NCBI GenBank assembly: GCA_026713385.1
Contig: JAPOOP010000439.1
Span: 1 to 33,219 of the forward strand
Direction of reading: 5' to 3'
Origin: Candidatus Poribacteria bacterium
GTDB lineage: Bacteria; Poribacteria; WGA-4E; WGA-3G
Length of the DNA stretch: 33,219 nt
Part shown: piece after piece, positions 16,917 to 32,882 of the stretch
Position numbering within the stretch: position 1 is the first letter of the stretch
Layout of the letters: each line of letters starts with the position of its first letter
Notes under the pieces: generated by a model
What the model saw: only the letters and a program-made list of their open reading frames with translations
What the model was told of the DNA's origin: nothing
Database searches by the model: none
Made by a program: the position numbers and the translations under genes

Positions 16917-19900
16917 TTACTTCCGCACGGCGATTTTTCCCACCTTTTGTTTGCGGACATCCCCTTTGCGGGCGGTAAATTTGTAGAGATAGACCCCGTT
17001 CGCAAGCGGTTCGCCATCGGCATCGTAGCCGTCATAGTGGAATTCGTTGAATGAGACGGACGCATCGAGTGTGTCAATGGCGAGGATACGGCGACCGGTA
17101 ATCGTATAGATTTTCAGGCTGACCTCGTCCGCACTTTCTGTCAGGTAGTAAGCGAAATGGGTGCCGCTTCCCGGCACAAATGGATTCGGGAAGTTGGCAA
17201 TATTTTTGATTTCAAATTCCCCAGCGACAGTCGCAGTGCGATCTGTGTCTGAGATATTGCCGTTTGCGTCCTGTGCCTGTAACCGGATGCGGTATTCGCC
17301 CGGTTCAAGAACGGGCGTGTAGGTGATCAGGAGCAGGTTGTTGTTTGTCGGCGATGCCGCAATCACATATTCGTCTTGTGGCACGTTTTCGCCGTTTTTA
17401 GTGAGGATTATATTCTCCGGACGTGAATCGATCCCGTTCGCGTCCTCCATCTGCACCGAGATGGTTGGTGTATCAGAGATATAATCGCCATCGACAAAAC
17501 CTTGATGGTCAAAGGTTAACGCAAGTGCGGGGGGGATCGTGTCACTGTGTGAGAGCAGCGCAAATGTCCCCGGCAGTTTGACCTCCGCTGAGATAGTGTC
17601 TCCACTCGTTATTTCCTCGCCGACCCGAATCCAATTTCCGTTATCAATGTCACGCTGATAGATATGGGCATCTTTTCGGGAATCGGAGTTCCCTTCTACC
17701 TTTTGGAAAGAAGCGGTCACTGTAAGTGTAGGATGGGTATGCAACGCCGATTCCTCCAAGTCGAATTGATAGGCGAGTGCGGATGTTGAGAGTGCCGCCG
17801 TAATATCGGGTTGATTTGTAATGGCAAGAGCTTCTTCGGCATACGTCAGAACGGTACTCGTTTGCACACTGCCGGACGGAACGGTAATACGAAAAATACC
17901 ATCTGGACTCTGAATCGGTTGATTGAGCGTTTCGGGTGTAAGGATAATACGGTTGCCTGAAAACCGCCGCGATGTCCAGTTATTTCTTTCCCGTTCTTCA
18001 ATGATGCTTCCCTGTGGGTGTTCGGCGGATGGTGGATCTACGTAGACCGTAACGAAATATTCACCGGGGGGTGGTTGCCAAGGAACACTTACGACAACTT
18101 GGCTGCCCGGTAGAATTTCGGGAAGTATTTGGAGATTCCCAATTGGAGTAGCGTTCTGGAGCTCAGTAAGCACGTCCGCAATGCTGACGTTTGTATTCGG
18201 GATATCGGTGTTCCCACTCAACGCTTTTACAAAGAACTGAACGGGAACATTTCGCACTGTTTGGACCTCTCGGTTTCGAACTTGTACTGAGAGCGTAAAT
18301 GGCGGTGTGGTGTCCCATGTAAGGGTTTGATCCAAAACGACGAGGTCAATGTCAATTTCATCATATCCTACATCGAAAGTGACTAACTCTGTTTGAAATG
18401 TTCGTCCACTTTTAACTTTGATCTCCGCGTAATAATCGATAATTTCTCCGTAGGGATAGCCCGGAATAGGTCGCTGACTTCTGTAGGTGGAACCAGCATG
18501 CGGCACGACAGGAATCGTGAAAAATTCGTGACCATCCAAACTCCAAAACAGCGTCATTTCGTCAATAGCATTTTCGTCCAGGACTTCTACGTAAAGGTGC
18601 ATCGGTTGGTTCGGTGCAACAGGAAAGGGAACAAGGCGTACACTGTTGACATATCGGGATAAGATATTGTAGGTTGCATGCCCTAAAGCCTCTTCATCTG
18701 CATTCCATGCGTAAACCTGGACAGCACCGACATCAAAATCAGGAGCGGCGGGGACTCGTATTTCTGTGTTGACCTGTCCATTGACGATGGGAACAATTTC
18801 CGGTTTCAGTTTTATGTCTTTTGAAATTGCGGCTTCGGTTGTCGGAACAACGGTAATTTCGGCATCTCCGCTGAAATTCCGGTCGGATAGCGTTCCAGAA
18901 ACCGAGAGAAAGGTATCTCCTTGAGAAGCATTTCGTCCTTGCTCGGCACTGATGTCGGCTGTGACTTGTATTGTGTTACTCGGTATTTTCAAGTTTGTCG
19001 CTGGATCTCCGAAAAGGGTGAAGACTTCAGCGAGATCAAGAAATCTGGGTGTATTGATGAGGAACTGGGTTTTCGCCTGTGCAAGGATAGCACCGAAACT
19101 GCGGATCTGCTTGTTGAAGATGACGTCAAAAATTTCGGCGTTCAGGTAGTAGTCGCCATCTAACAGTCCAATACTGGTTGCGGCGATGACGGCGATGGCA
19201 CCACCGTTTTCCGAGCGCAGGAGTTCTTCAACGAGACTGTTTTTATTCCCTTCAAACGCCCCTGTGTAGCAGGTCATACTGATAACGAAGGGGAGTTGTG
19301 AAATATTGGTTAAATTCTGTTCGGGATCTGCAAAGTCAAGCATCCGACTGGAGGCCCATATACCGCCACCACCGTGTCCGATATAGTTGACGATGCTGGC
19401 TCCGTCATTAAAGCCGTCGATAACTCGTCTACCGATAGGGGTAAGGGGACTGTCTGCAGTCAAAATCGGATTGTCCGTATGGGATGCGTAGATACGTTGG
19501 GTTTCGTATTTGGCATTCAGTTGATTGTGGGTGATAAGCTGACTGGTTTGCCAGTGGAATCTGAGATCTGAACCTGCCAGCATGAGGAGTCGCTTATGCC
19601 AAGAACCGGTTGGCGAAGAGGTTTCATAGTTGATGACACGTTCGATGAATATGCGTACATCGACGCGATTATTGGCTGGCATTCTACCGATGAGCATGTC
19701 TGGAAAACTATCTTCGCCTCGAAATGTAACGAATTGATGGTCGGACGCACTGGATCCGTAGCCTGGGATTTGCACCTGCATTGTCGGGACGAAATTAGGT
19801 TCATTTTTGATGTCGATATTTGTATCGCCTATGAGAAAGACATAGGTCGGAGCAGGCGGTTGCCAATTGTGATAAGCATAATTGAGGAATTCGCGGATAG

Positions 19901-22139
19901 CCTCAGGATTGAGCAGACCGTAGTTAAATTCATCGTAGATGTTTTGGACATCGACGACTTTCGTGCGCAATCCTTGTTGGGCGCGATAGTCGGCAAGAGG
20001 CTGAACGTCCTGAATAAAGTGGTTATGTGTAATGATGATGTAGTCTGCCGCGTTGTGGGTGCTACGCAGATCGGATGGTGCGTCTACCGAGATTTTCGGT
20101 TTTCGGAATTGGTTACGGGTAAGTGCGATGTATTGGATGGTAGGATCGTTCGCATCCTTAGGACGAATTTGGGTCGAGCGGAAGATGACCCTGTAAGTTC
20201 CAGGGATATCTTCGTCGACAAGTGGGGATAAGCCTACGTAACGCGTGCCGTCGATGCCATAAACCTCGATGTTTGGTGTGGTGAAATTTATTAATTCGAC
20301 CTTGAAGTTTGAGTTCACAGCACCTGTTTCGTCCCGGAACGGAGTAATTGCAAAGGGTAGCGTATCCGCTTCAGCTTTAAAATCTCGCCAGTAGTCGATT
20401 TGGAGCCAATTGAACAGAATGATATCGATAGGGGCTTCAGGGTGACCGGGGTTTGTAATCCGAATCGCGTTCTTTCCTTGATTGAGAAAGGACTGGGGGA
20501 TTTCCTGATTCTGGATTTGGTATTCGGTTTCGCCAGTCCAACGGGCTTCTCCAAATTCGATTTTATCGTTTAGCCAAACAGTGCATAGGTGCGGTGTGTT
20601 GGTTCTACCGTGGAGACTGACTCGGACTGTTGTAGGTAGAGCAGTGTCTGAAACGCTCGGAAGATTGAAGTTGAATGTTTTCAATGCGGGAGCACTTAAT
20701 TGTGACCAGAACCAGCTGTCATCTGGGAGCGGTGGCAGTTCCGTCAAGCGGAACTGACGCTGTAGCAATCCTTGACTAAATTCTGTATATGTCTGGCTTG
20801 CTGTAAGGTTGACATTACGGAAGCGTCTGAACTGTTGGTCTTTCTCGATATGTGCGCGTGTGAGGAAACGCTGGTAAGATTGCGTGTGACTTGTATTTGG
20901 GAGCGGCGTTTTCGTTCCCATCCGGATCCCGGGTCCCGCGCCCCAGGAGAGCCAATAGATATTCTCATCGGAGTTGGGGTCGATATAACTGGTCTTTCCA
21001 TGCTGCCGTTCGCCATAGAAAATGATTTCGTCTGTTAGGTCGAATCTTTTGTCGGCTTCACCACGGACAAAAATTGGTATCTGTTTTCCTTTATTTGATA
21101 GCGTCAATGTCGCTGGTGCTATCGCTTCTAAATTGGCACCGGCAGTTGCGAGGTCCTGCGCTGTAATACTGTACATGCCGGATTCAGTGATGCTGATTCT
21201 ATAACGCGGTCCTGTGAACGGAATGCTTGGTGCTGCAGGTGCTCGCTCTTTTAAAAATGAAGTGGGCGGAGAACGCCATTGAATCGCGCTCTGTGGGTTA
21301 ACAAGCATATCAGCGAAAATTGCGTCAAATGCGTCAGATTCGGTATGTAAACCACTGGGTATAGTGGATAAGACAGTAGACTGTGCTGGCATCTGTAGGG
21401 ATGGGGTTACCTCGCCTGTACGGAAGCGTACCTCTACCACGAGTCGGTGATAGAGTCTCACTTCACGGCGGGCAGGATTGTACTGGACAGGATTCAGTTG
21501 AATCGGGAGGACGCGGTTCTCTCGGATCCAACCGACTTTCCCGATTTCTGCGAGACGTTCTGGGAAAAATCGATCTCTTTGTTCGCTTGAGGTGTGCGGA
21601 GTTGTTTCTATCTTATGTGTGCTAAAATCCGTATCAATCACCCGCAATTGGAAATTTACGTCGGGTGGGACACTCATGAGCGTGGATTGCATCGGAAGGT
21701 GCGGCATGCCGAATTCGGTAATGAAATTACATCCTGGGAAAGATATAGATTGGCTCTCGGCTTTTGGCTCTCGGCTTTCGGCAAAGAGGTCTGCGTTTAA
21801 CAAAGTGTCCTTGCTGACTGCCGACTGCTGACGGTTTCCGACTGCCATTCCGCTGTCATCTAACAGGAAATCGGATTTAGGGATGACGAGTTGGATCGTT
21901 ACACCTTGCAAGGTACTACTGACTAATTCAATTTCTCTTTGGGTTTTCGCGCTGTTCCTTGTTGAAGCACGGGTGCTTTGGTTTCTTAAGGGAGTCGGTG
22001 CGGCTTCTGCGACTCTGTGAGGATGAATCGGACTCACGAGAGGCAGAGGACCCGTTTGTAAATAAAAGAAAAGCGTTATGAATAGTATGAGTAACCGTAC
22101 GGGCGAGATCGCGCGTGTCTTTGAGGGACGAGTTCGCAT
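16917..22139 (-). CDS. Giant secreted peptidase C25 (gingipain-type) with C-terminal FlgD/T9SS-like domain
   Basis: 1740 residues. The ATG at 22139 has GGAG 11 bases upstream. The N-terminus has an Arg-rich start then a hydrophobic segment (LLILFITLFFYLQTG), consistent with export. Residues ~300-400 (RYRISITESGMYSITAQDLA, then FYGERQHG) resemble the PorU-type N-terminal region. The C25 domain starts at ADYIIITHNHFI and carries the catalytic dyad: H922 in NYIGHGGGG and C957 in SMTCYTGAFEG. Later beta domains include a CARDB-like segment (LTWDTTPPFTLSVQVRN). The last ~95 residues (NIANFPNPFVPGSGTHFAYY to GVYLYKFTARKG) are FlgD-Ig/type A sorting-like. It should be a cysteine endopeptidase at the cell surface or outside. 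Residues ~101-130 are encoded by an inserted dispersed repeat. Confidence 0.93.
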   Translation of the reverse strand: MRTRPSKTRAISPVRLLILFITLFFYLQTGPLPLVSPIHPHRVAEAAPTPLRNQSTRASTRNSAKTQREIELVSSTLQGVTIQLVIPKSDFLLDDSGMAVGNRQQSAVSKDTLLNADLFAESREPKAESQSISFPGCNFITEFGMPHLPMQSTLMSVPPDVNFQLRVIDTDFSTHKIETTPHTSSEQRDRFFPERLAEIGKVGWIRENRVLPIQLNPVQYNPARREVRLYHRLVVEVRFRTGEVTPSLQMPAQSTVLSTIPSGLHTESDAFDAIFADMLVNPQSAIQWRSPPTSFLKERAPAAPSIPFTGPRYRISITESGMYSITAQDLATAGANLEAIAPATLTLSNKGKQIPIFVRGEADKRFDLTDEIIFYGERQHGKTSYIDPNSDENIYWLSWGAGPGIRMGTKTPLPNTSHTQSYQRFLTRAHIEKDQQFRRFRNVNLTASQTYTEFSQGLLQRQFRLTELPPLPDDSWFWSQLSAPALKTFNFNLPSVSDTALPTTVRVSLHGRTNTPHLCTVWLNDKIEFGEARWTGETEYQIQNQEIPQSFLNQGKNAIRITNPGHPEAPIDIILFNWLQIDYWRDFKAEADTLPFAITPFRDETGAVNSNFKVELINFTTPNIEVYGIDGTRYVGLSPLVDEDIPGTYRVIFRSTQIRPKDANDPTIQYIALTRNQFRKPKISVDAPSDLRSTHNAADYIIITHNHFIQDVQPLADYRAQQGLRTKVVDVQNIYDEFNYGLLNPEAIREFLNYAYHNWQPPAPTYVFLIGDTNIDIKNEPNFVPTMQVQIPGYGSSASDHQFVTFRGEDSFPDMLIGRMPANNRVDVRIFIERVINYETSSPTGSWHKRLLMLAGSDLRFHWQTSQLITHNQLNAKYETQRIYASHTDNPILTADSPLTPIGRRVIDGFNDGASIVNYIGHGGGGIWASSRMLDFADPEQNLTNISQLPFVISMTCYTGAFEGNKNSLVEELLRSENGGAIAVIAATSIGLLDGDYYLNAEIFDVIFNKQIRSFGAILAQAKTQFLINTPRFLDLAEVFTLFGDPATNLKIPSNTIQVTADISAEQGRNASQGDTFLSVSGTLSDRNFSGDAEITVVPTTEAAISKDIKLKPEIVPIVNGQVNTEIRVPAAPDFDVGAVQVYAWNADEEALGHATYNILSRYVNSVRLVPFPVAPNQPMHLYVEVLDENAIDEMTLFWSLDGHEFFTIPVVPHAGSTYRSQRPIPGYPYGEIIDYYAEIKVKSGRTFQTELVTFDVGYDEIDIDLVVLDQTLTWDTTPPFTLSVQVRNREVQTVRNVPVQFFVKALSGNTDIPNTNVSIADVLTELQNATPIGNLQILPEILPGSQVVVSVPWQPPPGEYFVTVYVDPPSAEHPQGSIIEERERNNWTSRRFSGNRIILTPETLNQPIQSPDGIFRITVPSGSVQTSTVLTYAEEALAITNQPDITAALSTSALAYQFDLEESALHTHPTLTVTASFQKVEGNSDSRKDAHIYQRDIDNGNWIRVGEEITSGDTISAEVKLPGTFALLSHSDTIPPALALTFDHQGFVDGDYISDTPTISVQMEDANGIDSRPENIILTKNGENVPQDEYVIAASPTNNNLLLITYTPVLEPGEYRIRLQAQDANGNISDTDRTATVAGEFEIKNIANFPNPFVPGSGTHFAYYLTESADEVSLKIYTITGRRILAIDTLDASVSFNEFHYDGYDADGEPLANGVYLYKFTARKGDVRKQKVGKIAVRK
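21752..21840 (-). repeat. Dispersed repeat embedded in frame in the C25 peptidase gene
   Basis: Read on the minus strand: GTCAGCAGTCGGCAGTCAGC, then CTTTGTTAAACG-CAGACCTCTTTGCC, then GAAAGCCGAGAGCC repeats. The same blocks occur outside genes at 27308-27386 and 30130-30199. Here the element is translated without interrupting the frame (residues ~101-130, NRQQSAVSKDTLLNADLFAE and following), giving a polar, low-complexity insert. Confidence 0.65.
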
Positions 22140-23322: not shown

Positions 23323-23622
23323 TTATGACTCCGTTTCAGAGGTGCTTGGTGTGTCAAGCAACGAAATAGAATCAACGATGCCAACGATGGCAACATCGAC
23401 CGGCATCCGCTTACCGGGGATGACACTTACGGCATCGCCACCCGTAACAAAGTAGACCGTTTCGCCAACACCTGCGTCGTGTAGCGTATCTACAGCGACG
23501 AGTGGTTCGGAAATGGGGTTGCGTTTCTCGTCTAAGGGTTGTACAATGAGGAGACGTGTGCCTTCTAAACTCGGGTCTTTTCGAGTTGCAACGATGGTTC
23601 CAATTACTTTTCCTAAATCCAT
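23323..23622 (-). CDS. EutN/CcmL-family microcompartment vertex protein (copy 1)
   Basis: 99 residues (MDLGKVIGTIVATRKDPSLE start). It has LLIVQPL, VAVDTLHDAGVGETVYFVTG (the conserved D-x-GxG-E turn) and VAIVGIVDSISLL, the standard EutN/CcmL beta-barrel pattern. It is paralogous to the next gene but clearly diverged, as in loci that carry several BMC-P proteins. The ATG at 23622 is preceded by AAGG in a leader that is duplicated in tandem (23623-23663). It probably heads a three-gene transcript with the second vertex protein and the lipoprotein. Confidence 0.9.
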   Translation of the reverse strand: MDLGKVIGTIVATRKDPSLEGTRLLIVQPLDEKRNPISEPLVAVDTLHDAGVGETVYFVTGGDAVSVIPGKRMPVDVAIVGIVDSISLLDTPSTSETES

Positions 23623-23663
23623 ATTTTAATTTTACCTTGCGGATTTTTAATTTTACCTTGCGG
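23623..23663 (-). repeat. Tandem duplication of a ribosome-site leader before the vertex-protein gene
   Basis: On the minus strand CCGCAAGGTAAAATTAAAAT occurs twice head-to-tail just before the ATG, the upstream copy with one extra A. Only the inner copy is in place to act as a ribosome site. A close relative (CCGCAAGGAAAAATTAAAAT) precedes the response regulator gene and is part of the 120-bp repeat there. The next ~220 bases upstream (23664-23884) hold no gene I can support. Confidence 0.6.
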
Positions 23664-23884
23664 TTCGGTCAGGTAGGTTTCAGGTTTGAAGTTCCTTTAC
23701 GTATATCTAGGGGAAACACCCAAGCAAAAACACCTCCAAATGTAAAGCATTCTCGCTGCGAAGCAAAATTATGCCATTTAAGGAGAACCTAATTTCATTA
23801 CGGACTACGGTTAACCTAAGTTGCCACTAATCTTCAAACGAAAATTAGCTTAAGACGTATATTTTTCTCATGAAAAGAACACAC

Positions 23885-25315
23885 CTATATCTTCCCAGAA
23901 ACGAGATTGTACTCAACAAGTTTAGTATGAAGCGTGTTCCGGTTAATACCGAGGATGTCTGACGCTTTACTCCGATTTCCTTTGGTGTGCTCCAGCACGA
24001 TTTTAAAGAGCGGTTTCTCGAAGATCGCTCGGATTTCAGCGTAAAGCTCGTCTGGCGATGTTTCGGATTCCATATAGTGTTGAACGTGCGTTTGAAGCAG
24101 ATTATAAATTTGTAGGTCAAGATTTCCCTGTTCACTGGCAGGGGTCGGTTTTTCGAGTATCGGATCGAAATGCTCAGGCAATAACATTTGTCCTGAACAC
24201 ATCACGAGTGCTCGCTTGATCGCATTTTCTAATTCGCGCACGTTCCCGGGCCATTCATGAGCGATGAGGAGTTTCGCAACTTCCACAGTGATGCCGATAT
24301 TGGGAAGTTGGTATTCTTCGACGAACCGTTGTGTGAACAGATCTGTGAGTTCCGGTATGTCCTCTTTGCGTTCTCGGAGCGGTGGCAGGGAAATGGGGAT
24401 GACGTTGAGACGATAGTAGAGGTCCTCCCTGAAGGCTTTCTGCTCAATTGCGGTTTCAAGCCGTCGGTTAGTTGCGGCGATGATTCTGACATCAACAGCA
24501 TGGGTCTCGGTTCCGCCCATCGGTTCAACCTCTCGTTCTTGGAGGACACGCAACAATTTCATCTGAACTTCAATCGGCAATTCACCGATTTCATCGAGGA
24601 AGATAGTGCCACTGTCTGCCTGTTGGAATTTACCCTTCCTTGCGGTGTGTGCGTCGGTATACGCACCTCTGACGTGTCCAAAAAGCGCGCTTTCAATAAG
24701 GCTCGAAGGCATGGCACCGCAATCGACGACGACGAACGGGTTGTGGGCTCGATGGCTGTTTTGATGGATTAATTGGGCGACAAGTTCTTTACCGGTTCCG
24801 CTTTCACCTAAAACGAGGACGGTTTCGTCACTGACAGCGGCGCGTCCAATTTTATGATAGACCTGCTGCATCGCCGAACTCTGACCGACCATTCTCCCCT
24901 GTCCGTCAACATCAATGGAGGTTGTGGAGGTCTTGACGTTTTTCGTTTGGGTGCTGGCGTCCGCAGCGCGCGACACAAGGTCGAGCAATTGCCGCTGATC
25001 GATCGGTTTTGTGAGGTATCCGTAGGCACGTTGCTTTGCCGCGTCAATGGCAGTCTGTGTGGTTCCGTGTGCGGTGATTATAATAATCGAGGCGGTGTTA
25101 TTGTAACCCTGAATGTCTTCGATGAGTTCAATTCCGTTGGCATCCCCTAACCAAATGTCGAGCAGAATGACATCAACGTTTGTTTCCTTGATACAAGCAA
25201 GCGTCTCCGCGCCATTTCGGGCTTTGCGTATCTCATAGCCTGCCTTCTGAAGCGTCGCGGCGAGTATCTGTCGGAGGCTGTCGTCATCATCAGCGATCAG
25301 CACAAGATTTGACAT
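23885..25315 (-). CDS. NtrC-family sigma-54-dependent response regulator
   Basis: 476 residues. The receiver domain (1-~118) has the acidic pocket DDDD (9-12), phospho-acceptor D53 and K103. The AAA+ domain has Walker A GESGTGKE (170-177), Walker B FLDEIGEL (D241, E242) and the arginine-finger region REDLYYRLNV. The C-terminal Fis-type helix-turn-helix is LEHTKGNRSKASDILGINRN. The sigma-54 contact loop reads GAYTDA (217-222) instead of GAFTGA; the F-to-Y change is common and the G-to-D change is less so. An AAGGA site lies 11 bases before the ATG at 25315. The histidine kinase gene lies directly upstream, so the pair is probably a two-component system acting on sigma-54 promoters. The targets are unknown. 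Confidence 0.95.
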   Translation of the reverse strand: MSNLVLIADDDDSLRQILAATLQKAGYEIRKARNGAETLACIKETNVDVILLDIWLGDANGIELIEDIQGYNNTASIIIITAHGTTQTAIDAAKQRAYGYLTKPIDQRQLLDLVSRAADASTQTKNVKTSTTSIDVDGQGRMVGQSSAMQQVYHKIGRAAVSDETVLVLGESGTGKELVAQLIHQNSHRAHNPFVVVDCGAMPSSLIESALFGHVRGAYTDAHTARKGKFQQADSGTIFLDEIGELPIEVQMKLLRVLQEREVEPMGGTETHAVDVRIIAATNRRLETAIEQKAFREDLYYRLNVIPISLPPLRERKEDIPELTDLFTQRFVEEYQLPNIGITVEVAKLLIAHEWPGNVRELENAIKRALVMCSGQMLLPEHFDPILEKPTPASEQGNLDLQIYNLLQTHVQHYMESETSPDELYAEIRAIFEKPLFKIVLEHTKGNRSKASDILGINRNTLHTKLVEYNLVSGKI

Positions 25316-25320
25316 ATTTT

Positions 25321-25680
25321 AATTTTTCCTTGCGGTTCGATAAGGCGTTTTGATACTTTCACGTGCTCTCCGTTGAGCCGTCCCGGCGCGTTGCTTGGGA
25401 CTACAATATTTGGCACTTTCCTTGCGATTCGCTATATTTTAATTTTTCCTTGCGGTTCGGTAAGGCGTTTTGATGCTTTCACGTGCCTCTCCGTTGCACT
25501 GTCCCGCGTGTTGCTTGGGACTACAATATTTGGCACTTTCCTTGCGATTCGCTATATTTTAATTTTTCCTTGCGGTTCGGTAAGGTGTTTTGATACTTTC
25601 ACGTGCTCTCCGTTGCGCCGTCCCGGCGCATTGCTTGGAACTACAATATTTGGAACTTTCCTTACGGCTCGCTACGATTC
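25321..25680. repeat. Three tandem copies of a 120-bp repeat between kinase and regulator genes
   Basis: Copies begin at 25321, 25441 and 25561 with AATTTTTCCTTGCGGTTCG, exactly 120 bases apart. Each contains AAGGCGTTTTGAT, CACGTG, CTCCGTTG, CCGTCCC, TTGCTTGGGACTACAATATT and CTTTCCTTGCGATTCGCTA, with a few substitutions, mainly in the third copy. The regulator-proximal end of each unit, read on the minus strand, is the AAGGAAAAATTAAAAT leader that acts as ribosome site for the regulator. The unit seems to have been duplicated together with its leader. No gene lies in this stretch. Confidence 0.85.
25411..25546 (+). promoter_or_regulatory. Two sigma-54-type -24/-12 matches inside the 120-bp repeats
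   Basis: TTGGCAC-TTTCC-TTGCG occurs at 25410-25426 and again at 25530-25546. Both keep the GG-N10-GC spacing that sigma-54 holoenzyme requires. In the third copy the match is damaged (TGGAAC, TTACG). The sites read on the plus strand, which would drive RNA antisense to the kinase gene. They may be chance products of the repeat, but they lie next to the gene of a sigma-54 activator. Confidence 0.3.
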
Positions 25681-27307: not shown

Positions 27308-27386
27308 ACGGCAATCAGCGGTCAGCAATCAGCAGTCAGAAAGAGAGGATAGATTCAGCAGAACACCTCTTTGCTGATGGCTATTC
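27308..27386 (-). repeat. Dispersed repeat between hisH and the histidine kinase gene
   Basis: Read on the minus strand: GAATAGCCATCAGCAAAGAGG, then TTCTGCTGAATC, then CTGACTGCTGATTGCTGACC. It shares the AAAGAGGT and CTGACTGC-CTGACTGCTGA blocks with the copy inside the C25 peptidase gene. Its upstream end includes the TAG stop of hisH, and its downstream end provides the alternative TTG start of the kinase. The 11 bases GAATAGCCATC also hold the stop codon of ribBA (28712-28722). Confidence 0.6.
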
Positions 27387-29955: not shown

Positions 29956-30120
29956 AATGATACGCCAAGCGTTAAATAGCACCTTATGTGATTTAACGGT
30001 TTCCACTTGAGGTTCGCCTGCCGCCGTTGTTGGCAGGCTTATAGCACCTTAAAAGTGATATAAGAAAACGGACAAATGATACGCCAAGCGTTAAATAGCA
30101 CCTTATGTGATTTAATGGTT
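29956..30120. repeat. Pair of 46-bp direct repeats in the ribE-ribBA spacer
   Basis: A 46-base block starting AATGATACGCCAAGCGTTAA occurs at 29956-30001 and again at 30075-30120 with a single base change (119-base period). A shortened third piece (TAGCACCTTA, ~30041-30050) and a hairpin GCCTGCC/GGCAGGC (30016-30038) lie between them. The first copy occupies the leader of ribBA, just before its start codon. Confidence 0.8.
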
Positions 30121-30129
30121 ATTGGTAAC

Positions 30130-30199
30130 AAGAGGAAACCTTTGTTAAACGAAAACCTCTTAACAATGACTGAAAGCTGAAAGGGTTGCGTAGCAACCC
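30130..30199 (+). repeat. Dispersed repeat and perfect hairpin upstream of ribBA
   Basis: CTTTGTTAAACG-AAAACCTCTT here matches the core in the C25 peptidase copy, followed by GAAAGCTGAAAG. The block is flanked by AAGAGG/CCTCTT inverted arms (30130-30161) and followed by GGGTTGC-GTA-GCAACCC (30183-30199), a perfect 7-bp hairpin with a three-base loop. Confidence 0.6.
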
Positions 30200-30213
30200 G
30201 TGCTGAAAACCAT

Positions 30214-30885
30214 TTAATCGATATAGCCGTGTTTCGCTAAAAAGTTCAAGTTAAGGGTTTCAGAAGAGGACTGTTTGCTCAACTCCGTCGTCTCTTCGCT
30301 ATTTTTTAACAGCGTTTCGAGATAACGCGCGACGATGTCGACTTCGAGGTTAACCTTAGCACCGTTCCGTTTCGTTCCGAGGGTCGTAACGTCCTTTGTA
30401 TGCGGTATCAGCGTGACTTCAAAGGCATCTGCGTGTACGTTTGATACAGTTAGACTGACACCGTCGATCGTGATGGATCCTTTGTAGGCGACATAGGGCT
30501 TGGTGGTGCGACTCATTGTAATCTGCATCACAGAGGCATCACCTTCATCTTTCCACGAGCGGATTGTCGCGACCGCATCAACGTGTCCGAGTACGAGATG
30601 TCCACCCAATCTATCGCTAAGCCGAAGTGAACGCTCTAAATTGACGTGATCTCCAACCTTCCGTTCACCCAAGGTTGTGCGGCGCAAGGTCTCAGCGGAT
30701 GCATCCACAGTGAATGTTTCCGATGTAAGGAAACGGATCGTAAGACAGGCACCGTCAATGGCGATGCTGTCGCCGACTTTCGCATCACTGAGAACGTCAT
30801 TCGCCTGAATCTCAAGAATCGCATCTTGCGGTTTAACCTGAATGCTTTTAATCGTTCCGAGTTCCTCGACGATCCCGGTGAACAT
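30214..30885 (-). CDS. ribE: Riboflavin synthase, alpha subunit
   Basis: 223 residues. Dismutates two lumazine molecules into riboflavin and the pyrimidine. It has the two lumazine-binding barrels: the first starts MFTGIVEELGTIKSI, with IDGACLTI and DASAETLRRTTLG; the second starts near GGHLVLGHVDAVATI, with ITIDGVSLTVSNV. The MFTGIVEE start is diagnostic. The last ~20 residues are a serine-rich tail beyond the usual helix. The gene starts 1 base after the ribD stop, so the two are cotranslated. About 265 bases of repeat-rich spacer separate it from ribBA. Confidence 0.96.
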   Translation of the reverse strand: MFTGIVEELGTIKSIQVKPQDAILEIQANDVLSDAKVGDSIAIDGACLTIRFLTSETFTVDASAETLRRTTLGERKVGDHVNLERSLRLSDRLGGHLVLGHVDAVATIRSWKDEGDASVMQITMSRTTKPYVAYKGSITIDGVSLTVSNVHADAFEVTLIPHTKDVTTLGTKRNGAKVNLEVDIVARYLETLLKNSEETTELSKQSSSETLNLNFLAKHGYID

Positions 30886-32590: not shown

Positions 32591-32882
32591 GCGTTTAGTA
32601 GATAGCTGTCAGCCGTCAGCCGTCGGTAATTGAATTGTCAGAATCAGGATAATCCTCTAAATCCCCTTATCAGGGGGACAGGATTACAGGATGGATAGGA
32701 TTGTGGTGTTTTTGCTGATGTTGTGAGTTTCAGAGTATTCAGAGTAACTCTGAAAATGGGTGAATTTGAAAAAAGTTGTGAATGTAGATGATGACTGGAT
32801 TGGCGGTGGTTTTGATGGGTGGTTTAAAAAAAGTTACTCTGAAAATGAAGATAAGAATTGTGATTGGGGAATGTGGGTGTTC

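Follow-up and report, generated by a model that had tools for sequence, protein, structure and literature searches.

In this work we describe a segment of a C25 peptidase gene from a Poribacteria genome that is very probably a copy of a palindromic repeat, about 100 nt long, non-autonomous and present throughout its genus, which is copied to new sites and tolerated in genes through the code of its 7-nt units (heptads). The repeat occurs hundreds of times in this group of sponge bacteria, and in the peptidase gene as in several housekeeping genes it lies in frame, because units of this length can be translated in nearly every frame. Palindromes that code for protein are known in Rickettsiales; a case is now at hand in Poribacteria, where many genomes can be compared, where heptad-pair counts span a 45-fold range within one genus (18–809), and where there is a simple coding reason for the tolerance of copies in genes.

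The copy in the C25 peptidase gene and its sisters

The window, that is, the whole stretch of 33,219 nt analysed here, is contig C15 of a Poribacteria MAG of 4.98 Mb in 749 contigs. This assembly is fragmented (89% completeness), and open frames stand in for gene calls. The features are listed in Table 1. The nearest named records of the peptidase are Poribacteria MAGs, the top one being OX639992.1. According to the translation and to Pfam, the element corresponds to approximately residues 98–131, N-terminal to the propeptide domain match, and its translation is open and continuous (DTLLNADLFAESR is an example of a peptide spanning the insert). A preliminary description had placed a repeat copy here, in frame with the host gene, and both points hold, with borders widened to the 101 nt of Table 1. 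The element has inverted ends (ATTGGC and GCCATT on the + strand) and inverted arms, and its length is that of palindromes of the 100–150 bp class. An AlphaFold model of the inserted segment, built with 8 sequences, reached a mean pLDDT of 35.6, too poor for a conclusion on structure or on the flexibility proposed earlier for the segment, and a structural reading was dropped for that reason.

Table 1. Features of the window related to the repeat and to its host gene
Feature	Position	Strand	Basis or remarks
Host gene, 1740-aa peptidase	16917..22139	-	Pfam: Propeptide_C25, Peptidase_C25, FlgD_ig; translation
Full palindromic heptad-armed element in the C25 peptidase gene	21749..21849 (101 nt)	-	Sequence, orthologue alignments, core copies
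Right heptad arm (part, gene sense), within AESREPKAES	21767..21782	-	Arm scan and translation
Common core CTTTGTTAAACGCAGACCTCTT	21784..21805	-	15 genomic matches (<=2 mismatches), reversed control 0
Left heptad arm (part, gene sense), within RQQSAVS	21813..21831	-	Arm scan and translation
Sister element between two genes	27308..27386	+	Left arm 27311-27337, right end GGCTATT; same site in G010
Non-coding sister element, same core (30140-30161)	30114..30215	+	Ends AATGGTT / AACCATT; same site in G010
Isolated left heptad arm (ATAGCTGTCAGCCGTCAGCCGTCGG), probably partial element	32602..32628	+	Arm scan

The core of the C25 copy is complementary to positions 30140–30161 at 20 of 22 positions (91%), and within the window CTTTGTTAAACG is present solely at 21794 (reverse) and 30140. 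A search of the whole genome with the 22-nt core CTTTGTTNAACGNANACCTCTT, allowing up to two mismatches, gave 15 matches and none for the reversed control, which confirms the earlier proposal of a dispersed repeat. The sequence blocks said to be shared with other copies were only partly recovered: the core at 30140–30161 is indeed shared, while the element at 27308–27386 lacks CTTTGTTAAACG and has only heptads and the CCTCTT stem in common with the C25 copy. ACCTCTT, also named as a shared block, is present; having 14 occurrences over both strands of the window, it does not by itself identify a copy. The element at 30114–30215 contains a GGGTTGC...GCAACCC hairpin. The two sister elements outside the C25 gene keep their places in G010, the closest relative of this genome; sister copies differ by small indels. 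Two other repeats were observed in the window. A near-perfect 46-nt direct repeat (29956–30001 and 30075–30120, 119 nt apart) flanks the start of a ribBA-like gene and is single copy in G010. A different tandem repeat, three copies of 120 nt, lies between two regulatory genes at 25306–25674, with a shorter related stretch 1.7 kb off at 23620–23702; at the 25306–25674 site G010 has a heptad element instead.

C25 matches were found in 40 of 40 genomes; 22 orthologous loci (L028–L049) were aligned, and L050–L056 as well as many weaker paralogues were excluded. Among these 22, G010 alone has the insert residues. In the other 21, the linker that joins the conserved motifs IPKSDF and SFPGC is shorter and unrelated, in agreement with the prediction that homologues would lack the segment. 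The loci from other genera (L048 and L049), where these residues would have spoken against the earlier proposal, are likewise devoid of them. The linker region measures 207 nt here, 204 nt in G010 and 171 nt in the three nearest empty relatives. The copy thus lies in frame as proposed, but it is not a clean insertion, since the net gain is 36 nt for an element of 101 nt, which indicates that the native linker was lost or replaced. Heptad-like tracts are present at the C25 linker site of two other relatives (L114 and L116) and may be heptad remnants. The best explanation of these data would place the C25 copy before the divergence of this genome and G010. At the DNA level the two genomes agree at 94.8% of the insert, compared with 85% for the gene; conservation this high is reached by 3.5% of the gene's windows of equal size, and it is compatible with constraint, with gene conversion or with chance. 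In G010, a further protein with a C25 propeptide (L072:1516-1874) carries two element copies within one open frame.

Architecture and coding properties of the element

The reading of many copies revealed a common plan, composed of a left arm (NNTCRGY)n, a variable core enclosed by an AAGAG...CTCTT stem, and a right arm (RCYGANN)n whose heptads are complementary to those of the left arm. When unlike arms lie within 120–150 nt of each other, their order is always left then right (17 cases versus none of the reverse order in 433 kb). In 700 kb of G010, made of 35 spread 20-kb stretches that overlap the 433 kb, the left–right order was found 18 times, right–right seven times and right–left never. 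The same 700 kb contain 115 heptad arrays versus 24 in a Markov copy, and 81 versus 2 when only arrays of at least 16 nt are counted. Terminal inverted repeats are also present: the hexamers most often found in front of the outermost heptad are AATAGC and AATGGC, and [AT]AT[AG]GC precedes it in 27 of 178 cases, for a background rate of 0.0008.

Element copies tend to fold, with a mean z of RNA folding against shuffles of -4.28 for 22 copies outside long frames and -3.65 for 10 copies inside. The window copy has a z of -2.2 as RNA; as single-stranded DNA, its folding does not exceed that of shuffles (z -0.04). A weaker folding of in-gene copies, hinted at by single-stranded DNA folds of 8 copies, was unsupported in 32 copies (p 0.21). 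No Rfam match above the gathering score was found in the window.

Seven equals 1 modulo 3, and an array of heptads therefore yields one cyclic heptapeptide in all three frames of a strand, with a period of three heptads (21 nt). This peptide is SQQSAVS-like for the left arm and AESRKPK-like for the right arm. The left arm is stop-free in every frame, whatever the N bases. As the palindrome reads left-then-right on both strands, only the right arm can close a frame: with T as Y, a TGA is met at every third heptad, and the frame is closed if GCTGA is in register. For arms lying outside long open frames, all three frames are open in 69 of 71 in left sense, compared with 47% of flanking stretches, and all three are closed in 25 of 71 in right sense. 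In-gene cores use two of the three frames in the seven cases that could be read (7/7), the third frame giving TGC TGA when Y is T, and the peptides NLFAES and DLFTES recur. The GCC:GCT ratio in right arms is 19:13 in genes versus 44:139 otherwise; we do not retain this GCC excess as proof of selection, because the requirement for an open frame itself creates part of it.

In-frame copies in other genes and the origin of the inserts

In the 700-kb sample of G010, 16 of 67 elements lie within open frames of at least 250 codons, compared with 2893 of 4000 random 60-nt stretches, so that genes are avoided, though not spared. Among these 16 cases, L172 and L190 look like chance (about two arrays of such length are expected), and several lie at the ends of open frames. 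Hosts with a Pfam match include PdxA, RecG, a pyruvate-ferredoxin-oxidoreductase-like protein, FG-GAP/UnbV, a second C25 protein, AsmA, Omp85/PD40 and T2SS protein K, part of this list coming from chosen rather than sampled stretches. For UnbV, the pyruvate-ferredoxin-oxidoreductase-like protein, AsmA, Omp85/PD40 and the second C25 protein, the insertion is read from the open frame alone. Comparison with orthologues establishes an in-frame insertion in four unrelated genes, C25, PdxA, RecG and T2SS protein K, the last three bearing out the earlier suggestion that the repeat family also entered other genes. Two cases are of note. L058:8253-8521 is an in-frame element in an FG-GAP/UnbV protein, its arms, one left and four right, being set apart by CTATCTTCC-like spacers. 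L184:7098-11030 is an open frame of 1311 codons with no Pfam match and three element-like stretches in frame.

At one site, PdxA, the passage from selfish DNA to protein can be traced from full element to collapsed remnant. Among 15 aligned loci (of 24 fetched), four carry clear copies (G010, G000, G008 and G012), two have only fused arm ends, i.e. collapsed remnants (G013 and G004), two have similar ends with a different interior (G011 and G005), and seven have no copy. The length of the PdxA linker is variable throughout the genus, as is that of the C25 linker. In L134 and L136 the PdxA linker contains fused element ends (for example ATAGC...GCCATT in about 25 nt) and resembles a scar left in frame after the loss of an element. 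In RecG, for which 18 of 24 loci were aligned, the heptad insert is present in G010 alone; G008 has a different insert, with AATAGC and GCTGACAGCC close to its ends. In T2SS protein K the element is full in G010, half in G008 and missing in 18 of 20 loci.

These observations suggest a model in which the repeat would spread by being copied to new sites, in keeping with its dispersed, near-identical cores and its presence or absence at a given locus. Three built-in properties would allow survival in genes: the frame-indifferent heptapeptide, the stop-free left arm and the left-then-right palindrome. Most in-gene insertions would nevertheless be lost, and the survivors would be those located in length-tolerant linkers or termini, which would later lengthen, shorten or change their interior with the frame kept. 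We infer the copying mechanism and the tolerance of the insert as a linker from these patterns. Pairwise comparison of syntenic sites yielded no clean empty/filled pair and resolved no target duplication.

An alternative is that the insert is a domesticated module, its peptide being useful in the propeptide region, for example as a processing-sensitive or binding linker, and kept by selection. The identity of the insert between this genome and G010, higher than that of the gene, points in this direction. However, it concerns only 32 codons in a single genome pair, sister copies acting as donors in gene conversion would leave the same picture, and other relatives do without the insert, so that we consider domestication unlikely. 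Alternatively, the C25 linker could be a native site prone to repeats that lengthened where it stands, through slippage in steps of 7 nt or through template switching, its likeness to dispersed repeats then being convergence on common heptads. Such growth in place would account for the variable length of the C25 and PdxA linkers across the genus, for the small indels between sister copies and for the short heptad-like tracts at the C25 linker of two relatives. Slippage cannot, however, supply a non-repeated core that agrees with a distant intergenic copy at 20 of 22 positions, and an order of left arm, core and right arm with matching ends is beyond its reach, the core and both end motifs being seen in one in-gene copy; we regard growth in place as improbable. 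Finally, the segment could be an original part of the C25 protein, with the intergenic copies derived from fragments of the gene. This reading agrees with the open, continuous translation of the segment, but is barely credible given that 21 of 22 aligned orthologues lack the segment and that the repeat recurs at hundreds of places, unrelated genes among them. The copying of a palindromic repeat to the C25 gene thus remains the preferred explanation.

Distribution within the genus and relation to known repeats

Heptad pairs, searched as the pattern GCYGANNGCYGANNGC with the reversed pattern as a control, were found in every one of the 38 genomes of the genus (18–809 per genome), for a sum of 7348 versus 601 for the control. 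Outside the genus there were only 124 pairs over 20 genomes from the family's other genera, and 55 in 14 genomes of other families. The heptad family is therefore a feature of this genus. Numbers differ strongly between species: the source genome has 306 pairs, and G016, G008 and G023, close relatives devoid of the C25 insert, have only 25–50. In the Poribacteria literature, mainly freely accessible papers, we found no account of the heptad palindrome, and the words 'palindrom', 'interspersed' and 'repetitive' are absent from PMC3909097.

A Y1 (RAYT) transposase, as the mover of a REP-like repeat, was considered and is unsupported, as its numbers do not track the repeat. Across the 38 genomes the counts of Y1 transposases and of heptads are not correlated (rho -0.14, p 0.41), and no Y1 transposase was found in the source genome in spite of its heptad pairs, an absence that is not certain in an assembly that is 89% complete.

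The Poribacteria repeat resembles the Rickettsia palindromic elements (RPE) in the way it seems to work. Palindromic elements of Rickettsia and Wolbachia are described as palindromes of 100–150 bp, many of them in frame in unrelated genes that they do not destroy (PMC10969869, PMC3767692). We do not file the Poribacteria repeat as an RPE: it belongs to another phylum, its arms are tandem heptads, and the likeness is one of size, form and placement. A review on MITEs (PMC10969869) considers it conceivable that a similar mechanism of protein-coding palindromes exists in other prokaryotes, and describes bacterial MITEs as short, dispersed elements with inverted ends, high copy number and occasional gene fusion. 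As far as that description goes, the Poribacteria repeat shares shortness, dispersion, inverted ends, many copies and occasional fusion with genes with MITEs; it differs from them in that no parent transposase was found for it, and no target duplication was resolved at the syntenic sites compared. A MITE origin is possible.

Tandem repeats in genes of Borg elements keep the frame and add a linker-like peptide, with units in ORFs that are multiples of three (PMC9879509); the Poribacteria units of seven instead keep their peptide through the cyclic code. A mobile repeat that is nearly frame- and orientation-proof might be a continuing, genus-wide source of new protein linkers, and in the species richest in the repeat it could then occupy more than 100 open frames of each genome, a figure extrapolated from the 16 of 67 elements in 700 kb of the 5.85 Mb of G010. 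We put this forward tentatively.

The TAACTGA heptamer repeats of Beggiatoaceae, cyanobacteria and Bacteroidetes (MacGregor) are described as direct arrays in which one strand has stops in every frame while the opposite strand encodes an open heptapeptide, LSVISYQ (PMC4679880); they lie mostly just before start codons, and some are in ORFs, mostly at gene ends. The common points are the heptamer unit, one closed and one open strand, and the presence of some copies in ORFs. The organization is different, as direct arrays are replaced in Poribacteria by two inverted arms around a core, with copies within conserved proteins. The Poribacteria heptads are also degenerate rather than exact: TATCAGT, which is TAACTGA on the other strand, accounts for 26 of 493 of them.
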